A model generated the notes under the pieces. That model saw nothing but the letters and a program-made list of their open reading frames with translations, searched no databases and was not told the DNA's origin. From Endomicrobiia bacterium (GTDB taxonomy: Bacteria; Elusimicrobiota; Endomicrobiia; Endomicrobiales; Endomicrobiaceae), in contig WQUP01000064.1 of assembly GCA_009782015.1 (NCBI GenBank), positions 1 through 14,848 on the forward strand: 14,848 bases of DNA. The letters are read 5' to 3'. Position 1 is the stretch's first letter. Each line of letters opens with the position of its first letter. Below are positions 3 through 14,600 of this stretch, one piece after another. The translations under genes were made by a program, and so were the position numbers.

Positions 3-1748
3 GAGTACGTCAAAGATAAATTCGGCTGCAAAGAGGCGGACGGGGCATGGCTTGCCGAAAGGGTATGGGAGCCCGGCCTTGCGAAAGTTCTTGCCGAGAG
101 CGGCATAAGATACACAGTGCTTGACGACGCGCATTTTGCGTCAGCCGGAATGGATCCGGAATCTTTAAGGGGTTATTACACTACGGAAGATCAGGGCTCG
201 TCGATCAACATATTTCCTATAAGCCAGAAACTGAGGTATATGATACCTTTTCAGGATGTGGACAACACCGTAAAATATTTTAAATTTCTGGCTTCTCAGC
301 CTTCCGAGACAAATCCCGTTATAGTGATGGCAGACGACGGAGAAAAATTCGGCATGTGGCCGGGCACCAATAAACACGTCTATGAAAACGGATGGCTTGA
401 GAGATTTTTGACGGCCATTGAGGAAAACTCGGATATAGTCGAGACTGCGAGTTTTTCGGACGTATTGAAAACGCAGAACTCTTCCGCAAGAGTTTATCTG
501 CCGTGCGCTTCTTACTTTGAAATGTCGGAGTGGTCTCTTCCGAGTGTGCCGCAGCAGAAGTTTGAGGATGTTTTAGGCAGATACGGCGGGGACGCCGAAG
601 CCAGAACATTTTTGCGCGGCGGTTTTTGGAGGGGCTTTCTTACAAAATACGAAGAAGCGAACAATATGCACAAGAAGATGCTTTATGTGAGCGGCAAAAT
701 AGAAAAAATATCGGAAAGCGGCAAAAGAGTTCCAGAAAGAGTCAGAGGCAGTCTTTATGCGGGGCAGTGCAACTGCGCTTACTGGCACGGCGTTTTCGGC
801 GGCCTGTATCTTCCGCATCTGAGAAATGCCGTGTACAAAAAGCTTCTCAGGGCAGAATCTTTCTACGTCAAGACAATGCTTAAAAAGCCGGGATGGAACC
901 GCTTTGATTTCGACTGCGACGGCTGCGACGAATATTTGTACGAGAGCGCAGGGCAGAATCTGTACGCAAAGCCGTCTTGCGGCGGAACGATTTTCGAATG
1001 GGATTTGTTTAAAATTAAACATAATCTTCTCGACGCGCTTACAAGAAGATACGAGGCGTACCATAAAAAACTCAAGGACAATATATCGAACGCCGTAATC
1101 GCAAATGACGACGATCATGAAGTCCGCACGATACACAGCGATCAGGTAAAAGTCAAAGAAGCCGGCTTGGATAAATATCTCGTTTATGACGCTTACAGAA
1201 GAAGTTCGCTTGCCGATCATTTTTTAGCCAACGGAATCAGCCGTGAAGATTTTTCTTTCTCAAGATACGAGGAGCTGGGAGATTTTGTTTCCGGAAAATA
1301 CAACGCCGTCGTAAAAGACGGCAAGCTTTTTCTCGGAAGAAACGGAAAAGTCGGCGGCAATGACGTCTCCGTTATAAAAATTATCACGCCGCGCACCGAA
1401 GGGTATCTGGCGGAATATATAGTAAAAAACAACTCGGCCGAGACTCTTGATTTTTGTTTTGCTCCGGAACAGATTTTTGCGTTTTCATCGAAAACGGGAG
1501 AGGATACGGCCGATCTTAAAAAGATCTCCGAATGGAAGAGATACGACGAGTTTTTAAAAATAACGGTAGAATTGAAGATGCCTTTTAAATGCGATTTGTT
1601 CGTCTGCCCCGTGGAAACAATTTCAAATTCCGAGAACGGATATGAAAAAACGTATCAGGGCACGTCGGTGACGCCTTTGGTCAGATGTCTCATGCGCCCG
1701 GGGGAAGATCAGACATTTTCGCTTGAGACATCGGTAATAAACGAATAA
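3..1748 (+). CDS. GH57 4-alpha-glucanotransferase / alpha-amylase family protein (5' end outside window)
   Basis: Acts on alpha-1,4-glucans (maltodextrin, glycogen-like polymers) by a retaining mechanism, probably in the cytoplasm. The reading frame is open from the first complete codon at 3, so the start lies upstream; 581 residues are visible. Visible residue 19 is the Glu of WLAERVWEP, the family nucleophile region. MADDGEKFGMWPG near residues 109-121 holds the Asp acid/base region (codons 333-338), and SYFEMSEWSLP near 170-180 is the next conserved block. AYWHGVFGGLYLPHLR near 259-274 is typical of the middle domain, and the rest is a beta-rich C-terminal domain. Thermococcus 4-alpha-glucanotransferase has about 660 residues with its nucleophile at 123, so about 100 residues are probably missing here. 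The choice between transferase and amylase is inferred from the motifs. A PTS block lies downstream after a 148-nt gap, which suggests carbohydrate metabolism. Confidence 0.9.
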   Translation, partial: EYVKDKFGCKEADGAWLAERVWEPGLAKVLAESGIRYTVLDDAHFASAGMDPESLRGYYTTEDQGSSINIFPISQKLRYMIPFQDVDNTVKYFKFLASQPSETNPVIVMADDGEKFGMWPGTNKHVYENGWLERFLTAIEENSDIVETASFSDVLKTQNSSARVYLPCASYFEMSEWSLPSVPQQKFEDVLGRYGGDAEARTFLRGGFWRGFLTKYEEANNMHKKMLYVSGKIEKISESGKRVPERVRGSLYAGQCNCAYWHGVFGGLYLPHLRNAVYKKLLRAESFYVKTMLKKPGWNRFDFDCDGCDEYLYESAGQNLYAKPSCGGTIFEWDLFKIKHNLLDALTRRYEAYHKKLKDNISNAVIANDDDHEVRTIHSDQVKVKEAGLDKYLVYDAYRRSSLADHFLANGISREDFSFSRYEELGDFVSGKYNAVVKDGKLFLGRNGKVGGNDVSVIKIITPRTEGYLAEYIVKNNSAETLDFCFAPEQIFAFSSKTGEDTADLKKISEWKRYDEFLKITVELKMPFKCDLFVCPVETISNSENGYEKTYQGTSVTPLVRCLMRPGEDQTFSLETSVINE

Positions 1749-1880
1749 AGTTTGGAGTTTGAAGTGTGGAGTGTGAAGTTAATGTGTTTTCGCTATGCGA
1801 AAACCTGTTAATAGGTTTATGGGACATTGTCCCCGAAACACGACAACTCCGCTCTTCACACTGCCGTTAAACTCCACACT
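1749..1880. repeat. Composite heptad palindromic element E1
   Basis: Starts directly after the GH57 stop codon. The left arm (1749-1780) is four degenerate 7-bp units of the form AGTTTGG/AGTGTGA. The right arm (1845-1880) reads as the same units on the other strand. The centre holds a perfect mini-hairpin at 1786-1804 (GTTTTCGC, loop TAT, GCGAAAAC) and a second one around GGGACATTGTCCC near 1820-1833. Its reverse complement aligns with element E2 (2548-2666), so the two are inverted copies around the EIIC gene. All of this is read directly from the sequence; function is unknown. Confidence 0.85.
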
Positions 1881-1896
1881 ATAGGTATTAGGTATT

Positions 1897-2535
1897 ATGA
1901 TAACAAGCGTATTTCTTCTTGCTTTTATTGCGGTTCTTTGCAGTTTGGACGTAACTGCCTTCGGGCAGTTTATGTTGTGCCGTCCTATTTTTTGCGCGCC
2001 GCTTTTCGGCTTCATAATGGGAGACATAAATACGGGACTGTGGATAGGAATGATTTCCGAGATGGTTTGGATTAAGGCTATACCGATGGGCGTTGCGGTG
2101 CCGATAGACATAGCGTCGATAAGCATAATGGCCACTTACTGGTCATGCAAATATTTTAAGGGAACTCACGAGGCTGCGATGTGGGCGATGGCTCTGGCGA
2201 TACCGTTTGCGTTTTTTTACAGAGAAATAGACGTTTACGGAAGAAATTTCAATATCAGGATAATGCACTGGGTTGAAGACGGCATAAACAAAAATAAAGA
2301 AAGCAGAATAAACTGGGGGCTGTTTTGGGGTTTGTTCTTTTCTGCCGCCAGGCTGTACGCGTTTTATTTGTTCGCTATGACGCTCGGCGGATTAATATTT
2401 CAGCTTGTATATTGCCAGTTCCCGGCTTTTGTAGTCGGAGGCTTCAAAAAGGCGTGGAGTCTGCTTCCGATTCTGGGCTTTGGGGCGGTTTTGTACAATT
2501 TCAGGAACATAAAGATTCCGTTTATGAAAAAGTGA
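1897..2535 (+). CDS. PTS mannose/fructose/sorbose-family EIIC component
   Basis: Integral membrane sugar-translocating subunit of a mannose-family phosphotransferase permease; it works with EIID and is energised through EIIA/EIIB. The 212-residue protein is strongly hydrophobic. It carries the family-like block from FGQFMLCRPI through the MGDINTGLWIGMISEMVW stretch and a following G...VPID segment (residues about 23-72), which resembles ManY. At 212 residues it is short for the family (usually about 250-265), with the shortening towards the C-terminus. The ATG at 1897 has a weak AGG at 1889-1891 upstream. EIID follows 154 nt downstream. The gene sits between inverted repeat copies E1 and E2. 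No EIIA or EIIB is present between GH57 and this gene, so these must be encoded elsewhere or be missing. Substrate specificity cannot be read from the sequence. Confidence 0.82.
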   Translation: MITSVFLLAFIAVLCSLDVTAFGQFMLCRPIFCAPLFGFIMGDINTGLWIGMISEMVWIKAIPMGVAVPIDIASISIMATYWSCKYFKGTHEAAMWAMALAIPFAFFYREIDVYGRNFNIRIMHWVEDGINKNKESRINWGLFWGLFFSAARLYAFYLFAMTLGGLIFQLVYCQFPAFVVGGFKKAWSLLPILGFGAVLYNFRNIKIPFMKK

Positions 2536-2547
2536 CCCGATAAATAA

Positions 2548-2666
2548 AGTTTGGAGTTTAGCAGCAGTGTGGAGAGTGGAGTTGTCGTGTTTCGGCTAAG
2601 CCGAAACTGATTAGTAGGTTTTCGCAAAGCGAAAACTCATTCACTCCACACTTCACACTCCAAACT
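2548..2666. repeat. Composite heptad palindromic element E2 (inverted copy of E1)
   Basis: Lies 12 nt after the EIIC stop. The left arm (2548-2584) has 7-bp units such as AGTTTGG and AGTGTGG; the right arm (2641-2666) is their reverse complement. Two perfect 8-bp mini-hairpins sit in the centre: 2589-2607 (GTTTCGGC, loop TAA, GCCGAAAC) and 2618-2636 (GTTTTCGC, loop AAA, GCGAAAAC). Its first 48 bases match the reverse complement of E1 at 43 positions by eye. The GTTTTCGC hairpin is kept in E1 with a different loop. Confidence 0.85.
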
Positions 2667-2689
2667 CAATACTGTTTTTAGAAGGAAAA

Positions 2690-3763: not shown

Positions 3764-5506
3764 ATGGCCCAGAACAGCAATGTGGTGTTAAAAGGCGTAG
3801 CGGCGTCTGCCGGCATAGTTATAGGCAAAGCGTTTCTTCTTGAAGACGATGATTTTTGTCTCATAGAGAGACAGCTTCCCAGGCATGTCAGAGCCGCCGA
3901 ACTGAAGCGGCTTGAAGACGCTCTGGAAAAAACCAGAGCAGAGTTCAGGACTGCTCACGATAAAATAAACGAGGTGCTCGGCGAAAATTACGCCAAGATA
4001 GCCGACGTGCATCTTCTCATACTTGACGACCCCGTCATGAAAAACGACGTGTCCAAGCTTATAAACGACGGCGTAAACGCCGAGTTTGCGGTATATAAGG
4101 TTTTGGACAAAATAATAGCTTCTTTCGACGCTATGAAGGACGAGTATTTCAGGGAAAGAAAACAGGATATACAGGACGTAAGCAAAAAAATAATCAATAA
4201 CCTCCTCGGCAAAGAAAAAAGAACTCTGGCCAGCCTCAACGACGATTCGATAGTCATAGCGCACAATCTTACGCCGGCCGATACGGTTGCGATAAGAGAG
4301 AAGTTCGTAAAAGGTTTTGCCACGGATATCGGCGGGAAAACTTCGCATACGGCAATTGTGGCGCAGGGGCTTGAGATCCCCGCGGTTGTCGGATTAAAAA
4401 ACATCTCGGCTCAGGTAAAAAACGGAGAGACGGTAATAGTTGACGGAAATAAAGGCGAAGTGATTTTAAAGCCGAGCGAAGAGATAATCGAGAAGTACAA
4501 AAAAGAATGTACGCTTCAGGCGGAGAGAGTAAAAGAGCTTGCCAAACTTAAAGATCTTCCGGCTGAAACTTCAGACGGACACAAAGTCGCAATCCTGGCC
4601 AATATAGACAATCCTCACGATATGAGCTCCGTAAACAAAAACGGAGCAGGCGGCATAGGGCTCTACAGGAGCGAGTTTTTATTTTTCAACAGAAACAACA
4701 TGCCGTCGGAAAACGAGCATTACCAAAACTACGGAAAAGTCGCAAAAGCCGCGCCGGACAAAGAAGTCGTAATAAGGACTATAGACTTGGGCGGCGACAA
4801 ACTCGCCGGCATGGGTCTGTTTGACATGCAAAAAGAGCAAAACCCTTTTATGGGGCTCAGGGCTATAAGACTTTGCCTGAGATATCCGGAGATTTTTATA
4901 GATCAGCTGAAAGGGATACTGCGCGCTTCGTCGGCAAATAAGAATATAAAGATTATGTATCCGATGATATCCGGTTTGGGCGAGCTCAGGGAAGCCAACA
5001 AAATACTTGAAAAAGTGAAAGCCAGCCTGAGAGCCGAAAAAGTAAAGTTTAACGAAGATATAGAAGTAGGCGTTATGATAGAGGTTCCTTCGGCGGCCGT
5101 CATAGTCGAAGAGATAGCGAAAGAGGTTGATTTTATCTCTATCGGTACAAATGATCTTATACAATATACTCTCGCGGTTGACCGGGTCAACGAAAACGTC
5201 GCGCATCTTTACGACCCGCTCCATCCCGCGATTTTAAGGCTTATAAAAAACATAATAGACGCAGGGCACTCCGCGGGAATAAAAGTCGCCATGTGCGGAG
5301 AGATGGCCGGAGATCCCGATTTTACGGTTGTTCTCTTGGGGCTTGGGCTTGACGAATTCAGCGTCTCCGCGCCGCAGATTCCTAAAGTTAAAAAAGTAAT
5401 AAGAAGCGTCTCTTTTGCAGATTCAAAAGCCGCAGCCGAAGAGATGCTCAAATGCCGCGACAAAGAAGGCATCGCCAAGGCGATGAAAAAAATTAAAAAC
5501 GACTGA
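3764..5506 (+). CDS. ptsI: Phosphoenolpyruvate-protein phosphotransferase (PTS Enzyme I)
   Basis: Cytoplasmic enzyme that autophosphorylates from phosphoenolpyruvate and phosphorylates HPr, starting the PTS cascade. The 580-residue length is normal. An N-terminal HPr-binding helical region is followed by the phosphohistidine domain with GGKTSHTAIVA, putting the active His at residue 195. The C-terminal PEP-binding TIM barrel contains RTIDLGGDK (338-346), NPFMGLRAIR (360-369), IEVPSAA (439-445), SIGTNDLIQYTLAVDR (459-474) and VAMCGEMAGD with the catalytic Cys at 511. All expected catalytic motifs are present. The GAGG at 3746-3749, inside the end of ptsH, is a plausible ribosome-binding site for the ATG at 3764. 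Last gene of the PTS block; palindromic element E3 begins 2 nt after its stop. Confidence 0.97.
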   Translation: MAQNSNVVLKGVAASAGIVIGKAFLLEDDDFCLIERQLPRHVRAAELKRLEDALEKTRAEFRTAHDKINEVLGENYAKIADVHLLILDDPVMKNDVSKLINDGVNAEFAVYKVLDKIIASFDAMKDEYFRERKQDIQDVSKKIINNLLGKEKRTLASLNDDSIVIAHNLTPADTVAIREKFVKGFATDIGGKTSHTAIVAQGLEIPAVVGLKNISAQVKNGETVIVDGNKGEVILKPSEEIIEKYKKECTLQAERVKELAKLKDLPAETSDGHKVAILANIDNPHDMSSVNKNGAGGIGLYRSEFLFFNRNNMPSENEHYQNYGKVAKAAPDKEVVIRTIDLGGDKLAGMGLFDMQKEQNPFMGLRAIRLCLRYPEIFIDQLKGILRASSANKNIKIMYPMISGLGELREANKILEKVKASLRAEKVKFNEDIEVGVMIEVPSAAVIVEEIAKEVDFISIGTNDLIQYTLAVDRVNENVAHLYDPLHPAILRLIKNIIDAGHSAGIKVAMCGEMAGDPDFTVVLLGLGLDEFSVSAPQIPKVKKVIRSVSFADSKAAAEEMLKCRDKEGIAKAMKKIKND

Positions 5507-5507
5507 T

Positions 5508-5600
5508 GCTGGGAAGCTGAGAAGTTGGGAAGCTGAGCAACTGCAACAACAAAGTCTTGGTCTTTGCTCAACTTCCCAGCTTCTCAGCTCTCTCAGCTTC
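5508..5600. repeat. Composite octad palindromic element E3
   Basis: Fills the ptsI-lepA gap. The left arm (5508-5540) consists of degenerate 8-bp units of the AGCTGAGA/AGTTGGGA type. The right arm (5564-5600) is the reverse complement, and 23 of the 25 innermost bases match by eye. The centre contains a smaller possible hairpin, CAAAG ... CTTTG. The unit sequence is unlike E1/E2 but the architecture is the same. The lepA ribosome-binding site begins 4 nt after it. Confidence 0.82.
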
Positions 5601-7409: not shown

Positions 7410-7531
7410 GACGATGCAAAGATGCGAGGATGCGAAGATGCCATGTAACGACAGAAGGGTGCAAAAAAAATACAAACTGACATTGTTTTTACCTCGCCTC
7501 TTCGCCTCTTCGCATCTTGGCGTCATTTTTT
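7410..7531. repeat. Composite octad palindromic element E4, with terminal T-run
   Basis: Begins 5 nt after the lepA stop. The left arm (7410-7442) is built of 8-bp units like GATGCGAG/GATGCGAA; the right arm (7491-7524) reads on the other strand as GATGCGAA/GAGGCGAA-type units. The centre includes an A8 run (7463-7470). The right arm is followed by a six-T run (7526-7531), so the whole resembles a large terminator hairpin for + strand transcription. The lepB ribosome-binding site (AAGGAG, 7532-7537) starts immediately afterwards. Confidence 0.78.
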
Positions 7532-7544
7532 AAGGAGATGTTAT

Positions 7545-8321
7545 ATGTCAATGGAACTGAAGTTGTTTTTGGCGGGGTGCATTCTTTTTGTCGTAGCCAT
7601 GTTGATGAAGGCGAGCAGAAATCATTTTAAGACGAAAGTCTCGCAGAGCCTTTTTAAAAACGTATATTCGTGGGTTGATACACTTTGGACGGCTTTGATA
7701 ATCGCGTCGTTTTTGATGTTTTTTTTCATACAGGCATTTAAAATTCCGTCCGGCAGCATGAGAAATACTTTCTACGAAGGCGACCATCTTTTTGTAAACA
7801 AATTTATATACGGTTTTCATATTCCGTTCAGCGACGGAAAGAGATTTGCCGCCTTAAAAAGTCTTGCGCCCGGAGATATAGTAGTTTTCACGTGCCCTCC
7901 TTCCGCGCTGACAGTTTCGGAGAGAGAAGCCAAAATCACCAAGGATTATATCAAACGATGCGTCGCAGTCGGCGGCGATACGGTTGAGGTAAAAGACAAA
8001 AAACTTTATGTCAACGGCATCCCTGTTGACGAGCCGTACGTAAACTTCGGCGATCCCAATGTTTATCAGAGCTTTAATCTGTTTAACGATGCGGCCGAGT
8101 ATCAGAAAGCTTGGGAAGACGGAAAGTTCAACTCCATTCCGCCTAATTTCATAAGAGATAATTTCGGTCCCGTTACGGTGCCCCAAGGATGTTACATGAT
8201 GATGGGAGATAACCGCGACTACTCTTTTGACTCGAGATTTTGGGGGCCATTGCCGGACAAATACATAAAAGGCAAAGCATTATTTTTGTACTGGCCGCTT
8301 CAAAGAATAAGACTTGTTTAA
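7545..8321 (+). CDS. lepB: Signal peptidase I
   Basis: Membrane serine protease that removes signal peptides from secreted and outer-membrane proteins, possibly including the adhesin encoded downstream. The 258-residue protein has two hydrophobic segments (about 5-22 and 46-63), then the periplasmic domain. IPSGSM places the nucleophile at Ser71 and DYIKR places the general-base lysine at Lys137. GDNRDYSFDSRFWG (221-234) is the conserved box E, and the VNKF and VGGDTVE segments also fit. The ATG at 7545 has an AAGGAG site at 7532-7537. An in-frame ATG two codons later is possible but further from the site. The TAA stop lies inside the first bases of repeat E5, whose matching copy E6 carries the same TTTAAC sequence. 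Confidence 0.96.
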   Translation: MSMELKLFLAGCILFVVAMLMKASRNHFKTKVSQSLFKNVYSWVDTLWTALIIASFLMFFFIQAFKIPSGSMRNTFYEGDHLFVNKFIYGFHIPFSDGKRFAALKSLAPGDIVVFTCPPSALTVSEREAKITKDYIKRCVAVGGDTVEVKDKKLYVNGIPVDEPYVNFGDPNVYQSFNLFNDAAEYQKAWEDGKFNSIPPNFIRDNFGPVTVPQGCYMMMGDNRDYSFDSRFWGPLPDKYIKGKALFLYWPLQRIRLV

Positions 8322-8418
8322 CGACAGAGTGAAGATTGAAGAGTGGGGAGTGAAGATAAGACGAACAAATGCTTTTGCCGTATCTTCACTCCTCACTCTC
8401 AACTCTTCAATCTTTTTT
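8317..8418. repeat. Composite heptad palindromic element E5 (inverted copy of E6)
   Basis: The left arm contains 7-bp units such as GAGTGAA and GAGTGGG up to about 8356; the right arm (about 8381-8411) is their complement; a T6 run ends it (8413-8418). Compared with the reverse complement of E6, the first 46 bases differ at 2 positions and the last 45 at 1 position by eye, with a divergent 11- to 12-nt centre. The similarity starts within the lepB stop codon region (TTTAACGACAGAGTG). Confidence 0.9.
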
Positions 8419-8431
8419 ACAGGGGGTTCAA

Positions 8432-8851
8432 ATGTCTTGGATTGCATGGTTGGTTGCCGCAATAGTTCTTGTTATTTTAGAAATTTCTACTCCGGGAATT
8501 TTTTTCTTTCTTAGTCTTGCCGTGGGAGCTTTTGTTGCTGCAATAGCCGCATATTTCGGCGTCTCGCACTGGATTGACTACATAATTTTTGCCGTCGTGT
8601 CAATTCTGTCGATATTTACCGTCAGGCCGCTTTTTAAGCGTTATTTTAAAAGAGCCGAAACCGCAAAGTCGAATGTTGACGCCTTGATAGGCGCCGAAGC
8701 CATGGTTACGGCGGGTATATCTCCGTCAAAAGACGGCTTTGTCAAAGTCATGAGCGAGATTTGGCTTGCAAATTCCGACGAAGAAATAAAAGAAGGCGAA
8801 AAAGTAAAAGTAATTTCCGTAAGCGGAACGAAGCTGTTTGTAAAAAAATAA
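8432..8851 (+). CDS. NfeD-like membrane protein (short NfeD1b type)
   Basis: Inner-membrane protein of the family that pairs with SPFH/stomatin proteins (E. coli YbbJ with QmcA) in membrane-quality or microdomain functions; the biochemical role is poorly defined. 139 residues: three hydrophobic segments (about 3-22, 24-42, 49-66), then a small soluble beta-rich domain (about 80-139) with LIGAEAMVTAGISP and GEKVKVISVSGTKLFV, typical of the NfeD OB-fold. No ClpP-like protease domain is present. The frame is open upstream to 8369 through repeat E5, but the ATG at 8432 is preceded by AGGGGG (8421-8426) and gives the normal N-terminus. The partner SPFH gene follows. The gene lies exactly between inverted repeats E5 and E6, and the A-run of E6 overlaps its stop codon. 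Confidence 0.88.
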   Translation: MSWIAWLVAAIVLVILEISTPGIFFFLSLAVGAFVAAIAAYFGVSHWIDYIIFAVVSILSIFTVRPLFKRYFKRAETAKSNVDALIGAEAMVTAGISPSKDGFVKVMSEIWLANSDEEIKEGEKVKVISVSGTKLFVKK

Positions 8852-8952
8852 AAAAGAGTGAAGAGTTGAGAGTGAGGAGTGAAGATACGGCAAAGGCGTT
8901 TATTTAGTCTTATCTTCACTCTCCACTCTTCAATCTCCACTCTGTCGTTAAA
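8850..8952. repeat. Composite heptad palindromic element E6 (inverted copy of E5)
   Basis: Mirror image of E5: it begins with an A-run that overlaps the nfeD stop codon (TAA at 8849-8851), has 7-bp units GAGTGAA/GAGTTGA in the left arm, their complement in the right arm, and ends with GTCGTTAAA at 8944-8952. The SPFH ribosome-binding site AAAGGGGG (8951-8958) overlaps its last bases. Identity to reverse-complemented E5 is very high except in the centre (about 8898-8910). Confidence 0.9.
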
Positions 8953-8964
8953 AGGGGGCTTAAA

Positions 8965-9897
8965 ATGTTGCCAGTTATCGTTGTTTTAGTGTTTTTCGCA
9001 GTGATTTTTGTCGCGAGCTCGATAGTAATCATCCGCCAGTATGAAAAGGGTCTTATTGAAACTTTGGGCAAATATTCGGGGACAAGGTCTTCCGGCCCGA
9101 ATATTATCGTTCCGATATTTCAGAGAATTATCAGAGTTGATATGAGAGAGCGCGTTATCGATGTTCCGCCGCAGAGCGTTATCACGAAAGACAACGTCTC
9201 GGTTGTAGTTGACGCTATCATTTACTTTCAGGTTACGGATCCCGTCAAAGTCGTTTATAACATCGAGAACTTTGCTCTTGCCGCGCTGAAGCTCGCGCAG
9301 ACTAACTTGAGAAACGTTATCGGAGATATGGAGCTTGACAGCACTCTTACCGCCAGAGGAAAGATCAACGCTCAGCTCAGGGAAGTTATGGATGAAGCTA
9401 CCGACAAATGGGGCGTTAAAGTTACAAGAGTCGAAATCCAGAAGATCGATCCGCCGCGCGATATTACCGACTCAATGTCAAAACAGATGAAAGCCGAAAG
9501 AGAAAAAAGAGCCAACATTTTGGAAGCCGAAGGTTTGAGGCAGGCTGCCATTTTGAAAGCCGAAGGCGCGAAGCAGGCGGTGATTCTTGAAGCGGAAGCC
9601 ATGAAAGAAAAGCAGGTTCTTGAAGCTACGGGACAGGCGGAAGCTATTAAAAAAGTAGCCGATGCAGAAAAGTACCAGATAGAAATAGTCTATAGCGCTA
9701 TTCACGCCGGCAATCCGACAAACGACCTTATAGCCGTTAAATATCTTGAGGCTCTGGGAAAAGTGGCGGACGGCCAGGCGACAAAGATATTCCTGCCGCT
9801 TGAAACAGCCGGAGTAACCGCTTCCATAGGCGGAGTGGCAGAGCTCTTTAAGGATCCATCTAAAATAGCGAAAGCAATATCTGCGGATAAAAAGTAA
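8965..9897 (+). CDS. SPFH/Band 7 (stomatin/paraslipin, QmcA-like) membrane protein
   Basis: Membrane-anchored scaffold protein expected to form large oligomeric rings and to act with the NfeD-like protein encoded just upstream. 310 residues: a hydrophobic N-terminal anchor (1-23), the SPFH domain (about 24-175) with EKGLIETLGKYSG, the GPNIIVPIFQRI segment, DMRERVIDVPPQSVITKDNVSV and the RVEIQKIDPP segment, then an Ala/Glu/Lys-rich coiled coil (about 175-235) made of imperfect repeats around ILEAEG and ILKAEG. A C-terminal segment follows, ending in a Lys-rich tail. Length and order match the paraslipin/QmcA group. The ATG at 8965 has AAAGGGGG upstream. A strong terminator follows the stop, so this is the last gene of its transcript. 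Not HflK/HflC: only one such gene is present and the NfeD partner points to the QmcA group. Confidence 0.92.
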   Translation: MLPVIVVLVFFAVIFVASSIVIIRQYEKGLIETLGKYSGTRSSGPNIIVPIFQRIIRVDMRERVIDVPPQSVITKDNVSVVVDAIIYFQVTDPVKVVYNIENFALAALKLAQTNLRNVIGDMELDSTLTARGKINAQLREVMDEATDKWGVKVTRVEIQKIDPPRDITDSMSKQMKAEREKRANILEAEGLRQAAILKAEGAKQAVILEAEAMKEKQVLEATGQAEAIKKVADAEKYQIEIVYSAIHAGNPTNDLIAVKYLEALGKVADGQATKIFLPLETAGVTASIGGVAELFKDPSKIAKAISADKK

Positions 9898-11370: not shown

Positions 11371-11417
11371 CACAGCACAGGAGACAAGGTCTCCGCAGCA
11401 CAGGGAACAAGGTTCCC
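11371..11417. repeat. Two matched mini-hairpins in a tandem 23-nt unit
   Basis: GGAGACAAGGTCTCC (11380-11394) and GGGAACAAGGTTCCC (11403-11417) are perfect 6-bp stems around the same AAG loop. Each is preceded by CAGCACA-type sequence like the microsatellite that follows. The stems differ at two positions, and the opposite arms carry the compensating changes, so pairing is kept although sequence has changed. Confidence 0.85.
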
Positions 11418-11469
11418 ACAGCACAGCACAGCACAGCACAGCACAGCACAGCACAGCACAGCACAGCAC
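11417..11469. repeat. CACAG pentanucleotide microsatellite (10.6 copies)
   Basis: Ten perfect CACAG units plus CAC, uninterrupted. It lies 145 nt upstream of the adhesin start and is non-coding. Such pure simple repeats are prone to slippage, so copy number may vary between cells. It is 5-bp based, so changes would alter spacing or RNA structure, not a reading frame. Confidence 0.95.
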
Positions 11470-11517
11470 TAACTAACAACAAGCATCCATTACATGCGTC
11501 ATTTGTAGAATTTGAAC

Positions 11518-11614: not shown

Positions 11615-14600
11615 ATGAAGAAACACAAGTCAAAGATCTTGTCTCTGGCCGTAAGCTGCGCTTTTCTCGTAACCATCGTAGCAAACTCATGGGCTCAGTC
11701 GTATAATGTGTCGGCCGGCGGATCGTTTTCCGGTTCTTCCGTGCCTGCGGCGCCCGCAGACGGCGACACCATAAACTTGCAGGGCGCGACAGCCACCGGC
11801 GACGTCGCGGTTACCCTTCCGGTAACCGGGACAACAGGTGTGCTCAACATAATAAGCGCTCCTGCGGCCGGAAGCATTGTCACGATCAGCGGCATAACTA
11901 CTCCGCTGTTTGCAAACAGCGCTGCAAATACAAATTTGACGGTTAACTTGACCGGCGGAAATCTCACTTTTACCGGCTCTAATGTCTCCGGAAACGGAGG
12001 CGTATTCTACAGCGCAGGCAGCGATCTAACTATTAATCTTTCCGGCGGTTCAGTGTTGACCTTTATGAATAACACCTCGAACATAAATCTTTCACCGTAC
12101 AAAGCCGGCGCAGCTATTTCCGGGGCCGGCAATGTGACTGTGGCCGGAAGTATCAATTTGAGCAATAATACCGTGACTTTCGCCAACGCCGTCCAAGGCG
12201 GCGGCGGAGCGGTATATGCCGAAAACAACGCAACCCTGGGAGTAACAGGCGGATCATCCGTTATCTCCGGCAACACAACGAACGGCTCCGGCGGCGGAGC
12301 GGGTATTTATGCCTATAACGGCAATGTAACGCTCAACGGCGACTGGACAGTCAACGGCAACAACGGTATGCAGTATAAAGGCGCGATAACCAGCCAGTTC
12401 GGCAGCGTTGTAGTAAACGGCAATCTGTCGGCAGACGGCAACACCGCAGGCAGCGCCGCCGTAATTTCAGCTAGTAAAAGCGTTACCGCAGGCGTTGTCG
12501 GAGGCTCATCCTTGCTTACCAATAATGTCGCAGGCGGCAGCGCCGGCGCAATCAGCGGCGGCCAGGATGTGACATTGCTTGGCAACTGGACGATTGAACA
12601 CAACAGCGCAGGCCGAGGAGTCGGCGCGGTAAACTCGGGCGCCAGTATCACCATAGGCGATGTCGGAGGCGTTTCCACGCTTTCCTATAATGTTGCACAA
12701 GCCTACGGCGGCTACGGAGGCGCTCTTGCGGCCGGGGTTAATGTGACGCTCAACGGCGACTGGACGGTCAGCTACAACAAAGGTTATATCGCCGGCGGCG
12801 CAATAGTAGCTATTACCGGTGACGTTGCAGTGAACGGCAGTTTGTCGGCAGATAACAATACAGTGGACGGCAACGGCGGCTTGATTTATGCAAGAAACAA
12901 TATAAATATAACCGGCGACGCAATTTTGACCGGCAATACTGCTACGGACGAGGGAGGTGCGCTTTTTGCGAGGGACGGAACAGTCAATCTCGGCGGGGCA
13001 GGCGCAACCATCACGCTTGCCGATAACACAGCCGACTACTGCGGCGGCGCAATTTTTTCCAATACCGGCGCCGTCACCATCGGCGGGGAAGGGGCAACCA
13101 TCTTACTCTCGGGCAATACCGCAACAACCGGCAATGGCGGAGCTATCTACGCCAACAATTACATAACGCTTAACGGCGACGTAACGGCAACCGAGAATGC
13201 GGCAGGCGGAGGAGGCGGGGCAATAGAAGGGGAAGGAAATGTCACTATTAATGGAACCGTCACGCTTTCCAACAATACTGCCGTAACCTTCGGCGGCGCT
13301 GTTGGCACCACCGGTACCGGCGGTAACATAATTTTTAACGGTGACGTGACAGCTGTCGGCAATACTGCCGGCGATTTAGGCGGCGCGATAGCATCTGTCA
13401 ATGGCGACGTCGCCATCGGCGGAGAAGGCGCAACTGCAATACTGTCGGACAATACTTCCGCATATTCCTCAGGAGGCGCAATATATGCCTTAACCAACGT
13501 TAATATAACGGGCGATTCCGCTTTGACCGGCAACAGAGCCTTTGCTTACGGCGGTGCAATCTGTGCGTACCAAGGCAGCGTCAGCATTGGCGGCGCAGGC
13601 GCAACAAGTACTATTTCAAACAATACAGTTGACTACTACGGCGGCGCGATTTTTGCCGGAACCGGCGTAACTATAACAGGCAATGCCGCCTTGGAAAACA
13701 ACACCGCCGCATACGGCGGCGCCATATTTGCGTACGATAATGTTTCGATTGGTGAAGCCGGCGCAACCTCTGCGCTCACAGGCAACAGCGCTTCAAACGG
13801 TTACGGCGGCGCAATATTTACATACAAAGACGTAACAATATCCGGCAACTCCGCAGTGACCGGTAACAGCGCAGTGTACAGCGGCGGTACTGTTTACGGC
13901 GGTGCAATATGCGCTTACGGCAGCGTTGTCATGGGCGGGAACGGTACAACTACAGAACTTTCCAACAATACCGCAACGAACGGCTACGGCGGCGCTATAT
14001 TTGCCGTAACCGGCGTAACGGTATCCGGCAACTCAATCATAACCAATAACACGGCGATATTCGGAGGCGCAATAATGACTCTCGGCACGACAAGCAACGT
14101 TACCATCGGCGCGGCCGGAACAACAACGACTTTAAGCAATAATACGGCAACAGCAGGCTCCGGCGGCGGAATTTATTCCGCAGGGACTGTTACCGTAATC
14201 GGCGCTTTGACTGCGGAAAATAACACGTCTGCAGGGAACGGAGGCGCGATAATGGTAGAAAAGGATTTAGCGCTGAATGCTACTAACGGAAACTTTACAT
14301 TTTCCGGCAATACGGATTCTGCGGGAGCAAACGCAATATACCTGTACAACACCGGCGGAGCGGCGGCGGCAACGCTGAACGCTGCCGGCGGCGATATAAT
14401 ATTTTATGATCCAATTGCCAACAACGCGGCGAACGGGCTGGTGACTATTAATAAGACAGGAGCCGGAATGGTAAGTTTCGACGGGGACAAACTCGGGGCA
14501 GGCAACACATCTCTGATTTACGGGAACACGACGGTATCTGCCGGAACATTTGAAATATCCAACAACGCGGCATACGGCGCATTGGGCGCAGACGCAGGGC

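Follow-up and report, generated by a model that had tools for sequence, protein, structure and literature searches.

Inverted Repeats Bracketing nfeD Are One Pair within a Dispersed Family of Gene-Gap Hairpins

Introduction

In the window analysed here, which is the whole 14,848-nt stretch of contig WQUP01000064.1, the gene nfeD stands between two near-identical inverted repeats, E5 and E6. Such an arrangement raises the question of what the repeats do to the gene. They could invert it and switch it off, carry it as a cassette, or pair in the transcript and loop it out; alternatively, the gene could have been enclosed when a repeat was copied from one of its gaps to the other. The window was compared with its own genome (G000), with the relatives G001, G003, G005, G006, and G007, and with the congeners G002 and G004. 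The own-genome sample comprised 60 of the 290 contigs and the window, and G001–G004 were represented by 20 stretches each.

A Pfam scan of seven window proteins recognised PTS IIC, PTS IID, LepA, a signal peptidase, NfeD, SPFH/Band_7, and a radical SAM protein with a HemN C-terminal domain. The SPFH protein has 90% identity with the homologue of Candidatus Endomicrobium embiratermitis. The window belongs to the genome of a termite-gut bacterium of the Endomicrobium group (Elusimicrobiota). The window also contains a tandem array of about 10 copies of the 5-nt unit CACAG (11417–11471) and numerous degenerate direct repeats at 11953–14407, a region which resembles a long gene for a glycine-/asparagine-rich surface protein that would continue past the end of the window.

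The Inverted Pair around nfeD

The genes lepB (signal peptidase, Pfam Peptidase_S26; 7545–8321), nfeD (NfeD C-terminal domain, Pfam NfeD; 8432–8851), and the SPFH/Band_7 protein gene (Pfam; 8965–9897) all lie on the plus strand. E5 (8317–8419, minus strand) overlaps the lepB stop codon with its left end. Its inverted sister E6 (8849–8952, plus strand) overlaps the nfeD stop codon with its left end, and its right end is just 5′ of the SPFH ribosome-binding site. The Pfam assignments confirmed that nfeD is the sole gene enclosed by the pair, with lepB on one side and the SPFH partner on the other.

The two elements were compared by global alignment of 8317–8419 with the reverse complement of 8849–8952. 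It gave 96 identical columns out of 104, in agreement with the initial annotation, which had described near-identical copies with mismatches mostly in the centre. The first 46 columns held 2 mismatches and the last 44 held 1, whereas the 14 central columns had 4 mismatches and one 1-nt gap. The longest exact run was 36 nt. With blastn, E5 matched E6 at 92.3% over 104, and with window positions 8310–8425 as the query, E6 was retrieved from the own genome at an E-value of 2.6e-37. The likeness ends at identical letters on both sides, beyond which the flanks differ, and the matching stretches include the stop codons of lepB (8319–8321) and nfeD (8849–8851). Both ends of E5 and E6 carry TAAA/TTTA, as a target-site duplication could, but these letters are equally expected from the stop-codon context. 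With regard to the U-run of an intrinsic terminator, TTTTTT was seen by eye at the end of E5 on the gene strand and at E6 on the opposite strand.

Each copy is itself a hairpin. The arms of E5 are 33 nt long, 85% complementary, and separated by a 22-nt loop, and those of E6 are 82% complementary. In both elements, the arms consist of tandem 7-mers of the GAGTGAA kind (assigned partly by eye). The predicted folding energy was −44.9 kcal/mol for E5 and −43.1 kcal/mol for E6, as compared with means of −18.1 and −19.4 kcal/mol for 100 shuffles that preserved base composition only. The likeness of E5 and E6 is far above chance, yet they are one pair among many copies.

A Dispersed Family of Hairpins

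Further hairpins built from short units were found elsewhere in the window. One of them (1744–1893, plus strand) lies to the left of the PTS IIC gene, is composed of the 7-nt units AGTTTGG/AGTGTGG, and has a loop of two small hairpins. To the right of the same gene lies its inverted relative (2535–2680, minus strand), alike at 107 of 135 positions and likewise with two small hairpins in its loop. PTS IIC is the second gene of the window that is bracketed by inverted elements, so the nfeD bracket is not unique. Hairpins with 8-nt units are present 5′ of lepA (5505–5600, plus strand; AGCTGAGA/AGTTGGGA) and between lepA and lepB (7413–7524, plus strand; GATGCGAA/GATGCGAG).

In the own genome, 40 places were scored for E5 out of 179 first-look candidates, and among these 40 the top non-self match was E6 (92%), followed by a match of 88%. 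A 23-nt heptamer tract matched the own genome 284 times (overlaps counted), G001 14 times, and G003 33 times, with 0 matches in G002 and 0 in G004; 7 of the 294 genomes of the phylum sample had any match. As a control, the tract was read backwards. It gave 0 matches in the own genome, G001, G002, G003, and G004, but a few other genomes matched. One distant phylum member, G179, matched this backwards control 44 times, which may reflect another heptamer array family.

Stems with paired arms and a 7- or 8-nt period were also counted directly. A detector for such stems gave 67 hits over 368 kb for the own genome, 41 over 244 kb for G001, and 55 over 400 kb for G003, as compared with 4 over 335 kb and 3 over 142 kb for the element-poor congeners G002 and G004, respectively. 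Sequence shuffled in 2-nt blocks yielded 0 or 1 periodic stems per genome. No Rfam match reached the gathering score, and the plasmid collection gave one partial match covering 31% of the query. E5 and E6 belong to a large dispersed family of hairpin repeats that fills many gene gaps in the own genome and in some relatives.

The members of this family differ in their units and loops. The arm periods in the own sample were 7 nt in 38 elements, 8 nt in 29, and 9 nt in 6, with 0–1 elements each for 4, 5, 6, 10, and 11 nt; in G003, periods of 7, 8, 5, and 9 nt were found 49, 6, 6, and 4 times, all these counts omitting unpaired arrays because the detector requires paired arms. The variety of units found by the same detector is wide and includes AAGAGTG, AACTATT, AATCATT, AAGCTGAG, AAGATGCG, and others. 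One unit may occur with several loop types, AAGAGTG having three of them in G001, and a given loop type with several units: an ACGGCAA-like loop, defined loosely with one mismatch allowed, was combined with up to 19 units per genome. Outer arm edges carried an ACGGCA-like motif (at most 1 mismatch) in 28 to 41% of cases and inner edges in 29 to 43%; for random 28-nt stretches the figure was 7 to 10%, a comparison that is slightly generous for the inner stretches, which were 33 nt. In a first-look alignment of mixed orientations, with E5 read a second time in one row and one place entered twice, the ends of the other copies varied.

Position in Gene Gaps

We collected 221 distinct elements from six genomes, a set that includes loci fetched for matching E5. 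They lie between co-directional genes in 148 cases, convergent genes in 15, and divergent genes in 14; the remainder are inside called open reading frames (12) or else at a contig end or far from a called gene (32). The stems start at a median of 4 nt past the upstream stop codon and leave a median of 21 nt between their end and the following start codon. By eye, one element (L107, 7026–7109) at a gene end provides the stop codon of that gene, and the gap is nearly missing in G007.

Gap occupancy was determined in the sampled stretches for hairpins with 7- or 8-nt units and gaps of up to 600 nt; the minimum for a called gene was an ATG open reading frame of 70 codons, which makes absolute gap and gene counts approximate. 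Of the co-directional gaps, the own genome had 45 of 153 occupied, G001 24 of 130, and G003 41 of 216, whereas the figures for G002 and G004 were 0 of 224 and 3 of 66. Co-directional gaps in these stretches had a median length of 114 nt for the own genome, 24 nt for G002, and 32.5 nt for G004. Since co-directional gaps make up a similar share of the occupied gaps (45/53) and of all gaps (153/190) in the own genome, there is little preference for the co-directional arrangement as such.

The orientation of 55 E6-like elements was also followed. It was resolved for 31 co-directional copies, of which 22 were canonical and 9 reversed, the orientation of E5 being that of 9 of the 31; 16 copies were unresolved, 7 convergent, and 1 divergent. 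In the own genome alone, 7 copies were canonical and 6 reversed, with the reference E6 counted in this tally, and orientation was therefore left out of the evidence. Tables of occupancy in orthologous gaps were drawn up for G000–G001 (10 gaps, 4/1/1/4, p = 0.21), G000–G003 (9 gaps, 1/3/0/5, p = 0.44), and G000–G005 (7 gaps, 3/1/0/3, p = 0.14), numbers of gaps that are too few to decide whether occupancy is conserved across species.

The nfeD Locus in Relatives

Among 80 loci fetched around SPFH genes, 72 had both nfeD and SPFH matches. The two genes were on one strand in 72 of 72 loci, and nfeD was less than 400 nt upstream in 71. Of these 72 loci, 52 also had a same-strand lepB gene no more than 500 nt upstream. 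In G002 and G004, the order lepB-nfeD-SPFH is intact and the gaps are short, with neither the E5 family nor hairpins in them. Hairpins are present in both nfeD gaps of G001, G003, G005, and G007 (judged partly by eye), and G006 has, by eye, a short remnant-like hairpin in one of these gaps that was missed by the detector.

The nfeD hairpins of the relatives are not copies of one bracket. In G005, the two are alike in direct orientation at 145 of 161 positions, a stretch whose final 25 or so letters are the ribosome-binding site and start codon; the unit is about one letter from that of the window, and the loop differs. The G007 pair is also direct (79 of 86 positions alike) and is built from an unrelated 8-mer. 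The two hairpins of G001 are unlike, one being of the window kind (GAGTGAA/GAGTGTA) and the other of the ATTAATA type, and those of G003 are alike only in part.

These data bear on the proposal of a switch in which nfeD is flipped, and so turned off, when E5 recombines with E6. The inverted copies are 92% alike, and a 36-nt exact identity is in principle enough for occasional homologous recombination. However, the single orientation of nfeD relative to SPFH in all 72 loci does not bear out such a switch. The alike pairs of G005 and G007 are direct, so whole-element recombination cannot invert nfeD there. Three genome samples together yielded five near pairs with a score of 0.6 or more; four of these are direct and E5/E6 is the sole inverted one, though the weaker PTS pair of the window, which is outside those five, is inverted as well. 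No invertase was recognised among the seven Pfam-scanned window proteins. We regard flipping of nfeD as most improbable.

Movement of nfeD as a mobile cassette between E5 and E6 is barely credible, even though an element at each end of one gene resembles a composite element. The position of lepB in 52 of 72 loci, and the same gene order in G002 and G004 in gaps that lack the E5 family, argue against it. So do the gap hairpins of G001, G003, G005, and G007, which vary in unit, loop, or orientation, and the different element pair that brackets the PTS IIC gene. The comparison of nfeD context in relatives had been put forward at the outset as a check, and the repeat-free order in the two congeners speaks against inversion and cassette movement alike. 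Nothing found suggests that nfeD flips or moves.

RNA Folding

The remaining role suggested for the bracket was that E5 and E6 pair in RNA, loop out nfeD, and set its translation or stability relative to SPFH. Such pairing is energetically possible. The full-length fold with E5–E6 pairing had −279.2 kcal/mol, against −194.1 kcal/mol when the pair span was limited to at most 150 nt, and 100 bases of E5 were paired to E6. The direct pairs of G005 and G007 favour long-range pairing less (−195.2 vs. −172.3 and −174.2 vs. −155.3 kcal/mol, respectively), and some pairing over the distance is predicted for them because each copy is palindromic. Pairing between E5 and E6 would then be what any two alike palindromes sharing a transcript should show.

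Selection for a stem in the sense-strand RNA should favour G-U over A-C among arm mismatches. In 148 co-directional elements, no sense-strand excess of G-U over A-C was seen (240 vs. 229, p = 0.64), so this selection is unsupported, and the looping proposed earlier stands as an energetic possibility whose function the mismatches do not support. RNA-level selection on the stem was rejected as a candidate on the same counts, which are still compatible with a role of single copies.

The match of nfeD units within each of three species would agree with regulation by looping. In G001, in contrast, the nfeD units are unlike, and in G002 and G004 there are no hairpins at the locus. Most near neighbours elsewhere are also unlike (6 of 32 near pairs in the own sample score at least 0.35), and the local hairpins of E5 and E6 would probably form first during transcription. 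Taken with the mismatch counts, this makes regulation of nfeD by looping very unlikely.

Local Copying of Elements

The likeness of neighbouring elements was assessed in the own sample, which contained 66 elements. Pairs less than 1.5 kb apart had a mean likeness of 0.202, as compared with 0.122 for all pairs (permutation, p = 0.0014), and 3 of 32 near pairs scored at least 0.6, where 0.10 was expected (p = 0.0004). The same test was borderline in G001 (10 near pairs, p = 0.05), and no excess was seen in G003 (19 near pairs, p = 0.32). Some near-pair copies exceed the element: the rpsM leader is alike at 183 of 199 positions, L147, a tandem duplication, at 173 of 186, and in L210 the likeness extends by about 30 nt. 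In the ribosomal gene cluster L117 (by eye infA, rpsM, rpsK, and rpsD), the element and leader up to the rpsM start codon (2035–2233) are repeated before rpsK (2629–2822) with the above 183 of 199 positions alike, so that the whole gene gap was copied.

Copies are also found far from each other. For the G005 nfeD element, two copies on other contigs are closer (95% and 94%) than its neighbour (91%), and for that of G007 the neighbour, at 87%, has hardly any lead over others (87% and 85%). The PTS element of the window has its best copy elsewhere (88%, vs. 79% for the neighbour), 40 places being scored in each of these searches. On another contig of the own genome, we followed two element-holding gaps into G005, G006, and G007, which are too distant from the own genome for exact empty sites. 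The same element was found in none of them; the gaps were short or contained other sequence, once, in G005, a hairpin with 8-nt units, which fits insertion and loss. Dispersal and local copying both occur. Local copying of elements is likely and is not special to nfeD. The earlier suggestion that copies are kept alike locally, by template switching, thus holds in part: the near-pair excess of the own genome agrees with it, but there is none in G003, and copies are also dispersed.

It could be asked whether E5 and E6 are instead old copies whose likeness is maintained by gene conversion or template switching and does not reflect recent copying. The mechanism overlaps with that of the explanation favoured below, and we consider it possible but somewhat unlikely. 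The nfeD pair is alike within G000, G005, and G007 and differs between them (by about one unit letter and the loop in G005, altogether in G007), an element-plus-leader copy exists at rpsM and rpsK, and the arms complement their own partner better (0.81) than the arms of other elements (0.71). On the other hand, the two closer G005 copies lie on other contigs, and the two own-contig gaps without that element in G005, G006, and G007 are as insertion and loss would leave them. Moreover, E5 and E6 diverge most in their centres, where conversion would have no evident reason to stop.

E5 and E6 are probably sister copies of a dispersed, mobile-like gap hairpin, whose local copying would have bracketed nfeD passively. 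This explanation is based on the high copy number, the position after stop codons, the precise ends of E5 and E6, the element-free short gaps in two congeners, and the likeness of near neighbours. One of the two nfeD gaps would have received an element copy, which would then have been copied to the other gap in the opposite orientation, either through local transposition or through a template switch or recombination event involving the hairpins. The gene itself would have stayed in place and become bracketed passively. Elements may persist where they are harmless to both genes, between the stop codon and the next ribosome-binding site. Against this explanation, local copying is clear in the own genome only, G002 and G004 are not hairpin-free (4 and 3 detector hits), and a search for Y1_Tnp transposases identified no mobilising enzyme. 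The nfeD bracket is probably an ordinary consequence of element density and local copying. A switchable or mobile nfeD is removed as a false lead, and the real feature is the expansion of unit-built gap hairpins.

The nfeD gaps of G000, G005, and G007, which match within and differ between species, also gave rise to a reading of in-place rewriting. The repeats would be modular, with ACGGCA-like edges and loops that stay and a 7- or 8-nt unit that is rewritten in both arms together. We hold this to be unlikely, all the more as the G005 unit at nfeD is about one letter from that of the window and one of the G001 units there is of the window kind, which reduces the contrast between species and weakens the conversion reading as well. 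If the reading were true, a mechanism not yet described would be placing tandem units in the two arms of an intergenic hairpin and homogenising neighbours. Endomicrobium has element-rich as well as element-poor congeners, in which the gain, loss, and copying of hairpins could be tracked with strain-level data.

Comparison with Known Repeats

REP/BIME elements with their RAYT transposase are intergenic palindromes in operons. The Endomicrobium hairpins are likewise intergenic palindromes, and a Y1 (RAYT-like) transposase match was found in G001, G003, G005, and G006. The own genome (71% complete), the element-bearing G007 (completeness not given), G002, and G004 gave no such match. Among five Y1 loci of G001 and G003, one (L275) has a periodic hairpin beside the gene, one (L277) a stem inside the gene, and three have none; one locus, L276, is cut by a contig end. 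In 4 of 5 scanned loci, unlike in REP/RAYT systems, no such hairpin thus stands beside the transposase gene, and the gene is not regularly flanked by the elements. Y1/RAYT was rejected as the mobiliser, as neither its distribution nor its flanks fit. The RAYT-like Y1 genes L273 and L274, from element-bearing Endomicrobium genomes, bear short terminal palindromes of their own (by eye).

Cyanobacterial short tandemly repeated repetitive (STRR) sequences consist of heptamer units in tandem in intergenic DNA, and the Endomicrobium elements share this. They differ from the Rickettsia palindromic element, as frequent in-frame insertion into genes was not found: 12 of 221 lie inside open reading frames, which were called by length and are possibly spurious. 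Like the MITEs described in a review (PMC10969869), the hairpins are short, non-coding, intergenic, and present in high copy number, with inverted ends and a stem-loop; unlike those MITEs, their arms are made of 7/8-nt tandem units. There are many dispersed copies, and as to conserved ends, those of E5 and E6 coincide while those of other copies vary. The hairpins can at most be called MITE-like.

The nearest published elements found are the inverted heptamer arrays of Xanthomonas described by Rehm et al. (2015; PMC4692102). That paper reports arrays of GGGAATC in Xanthomonas and GGGGA(C/T)T in Nostoc, of unknown function, with frequent convergent (inverted) array pairs (70 in X. campestris and 75 in X. 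axonopodis pv. citri). As in these arrays, there are 7-nt units in Endomicrobium that are mostly non-coding and dispersed, and as in Xanthomonas inverted pairing occurs; tandem 7-nt units in intergenic DNA, often as inverted pairs, were found here too. The same paper treats one G-rich quadruplex-type unit per organism and cites three heptamers for Calothrix (PMC4692102). Endomicrobium, by comparison, has many 7-/8-nt units per genome, paired arms, differing loops, and ACGGCA-like edges, and units such as AAGAGTG, AACTATT, and AAGCTGAG do not fit a G-rich quadruplex-type unit, as judged by unit sequence. Similar inverted heptamer arrays are thus known from another phylum, without a mechanism. 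The TAACTGA repeats of Beggiatoaceae, which belong to an unrelated phylum, are described in PMC4679880 as 169 direct sets and one inverted set, mostly before start codons. They resemble the Endomicrobium elements as 7-nt intergenic arrays of patchy spread and, in that description, differ from them in having no hairpin architecture. In the open literature searched with selected terms, we found no account of such elements in Endomicrobium or Elusimicrobiota; Endomicrobia genomes are treated in PMC11257099.

Two observations stand apart from the above. The 23-nt heptamer pattern was matched by 77 viral-contig stretches (L278–L354). A second class of palindromes, non-periodic and of the TGTCATTCCCGCGAAAGCGGGAATCCA and GTCATTGCGGCCTCCGAGCCGCAATCT types, is present in the own genome at L170 (3687–3777 and 6529–6599) and L173 (3566–3635).
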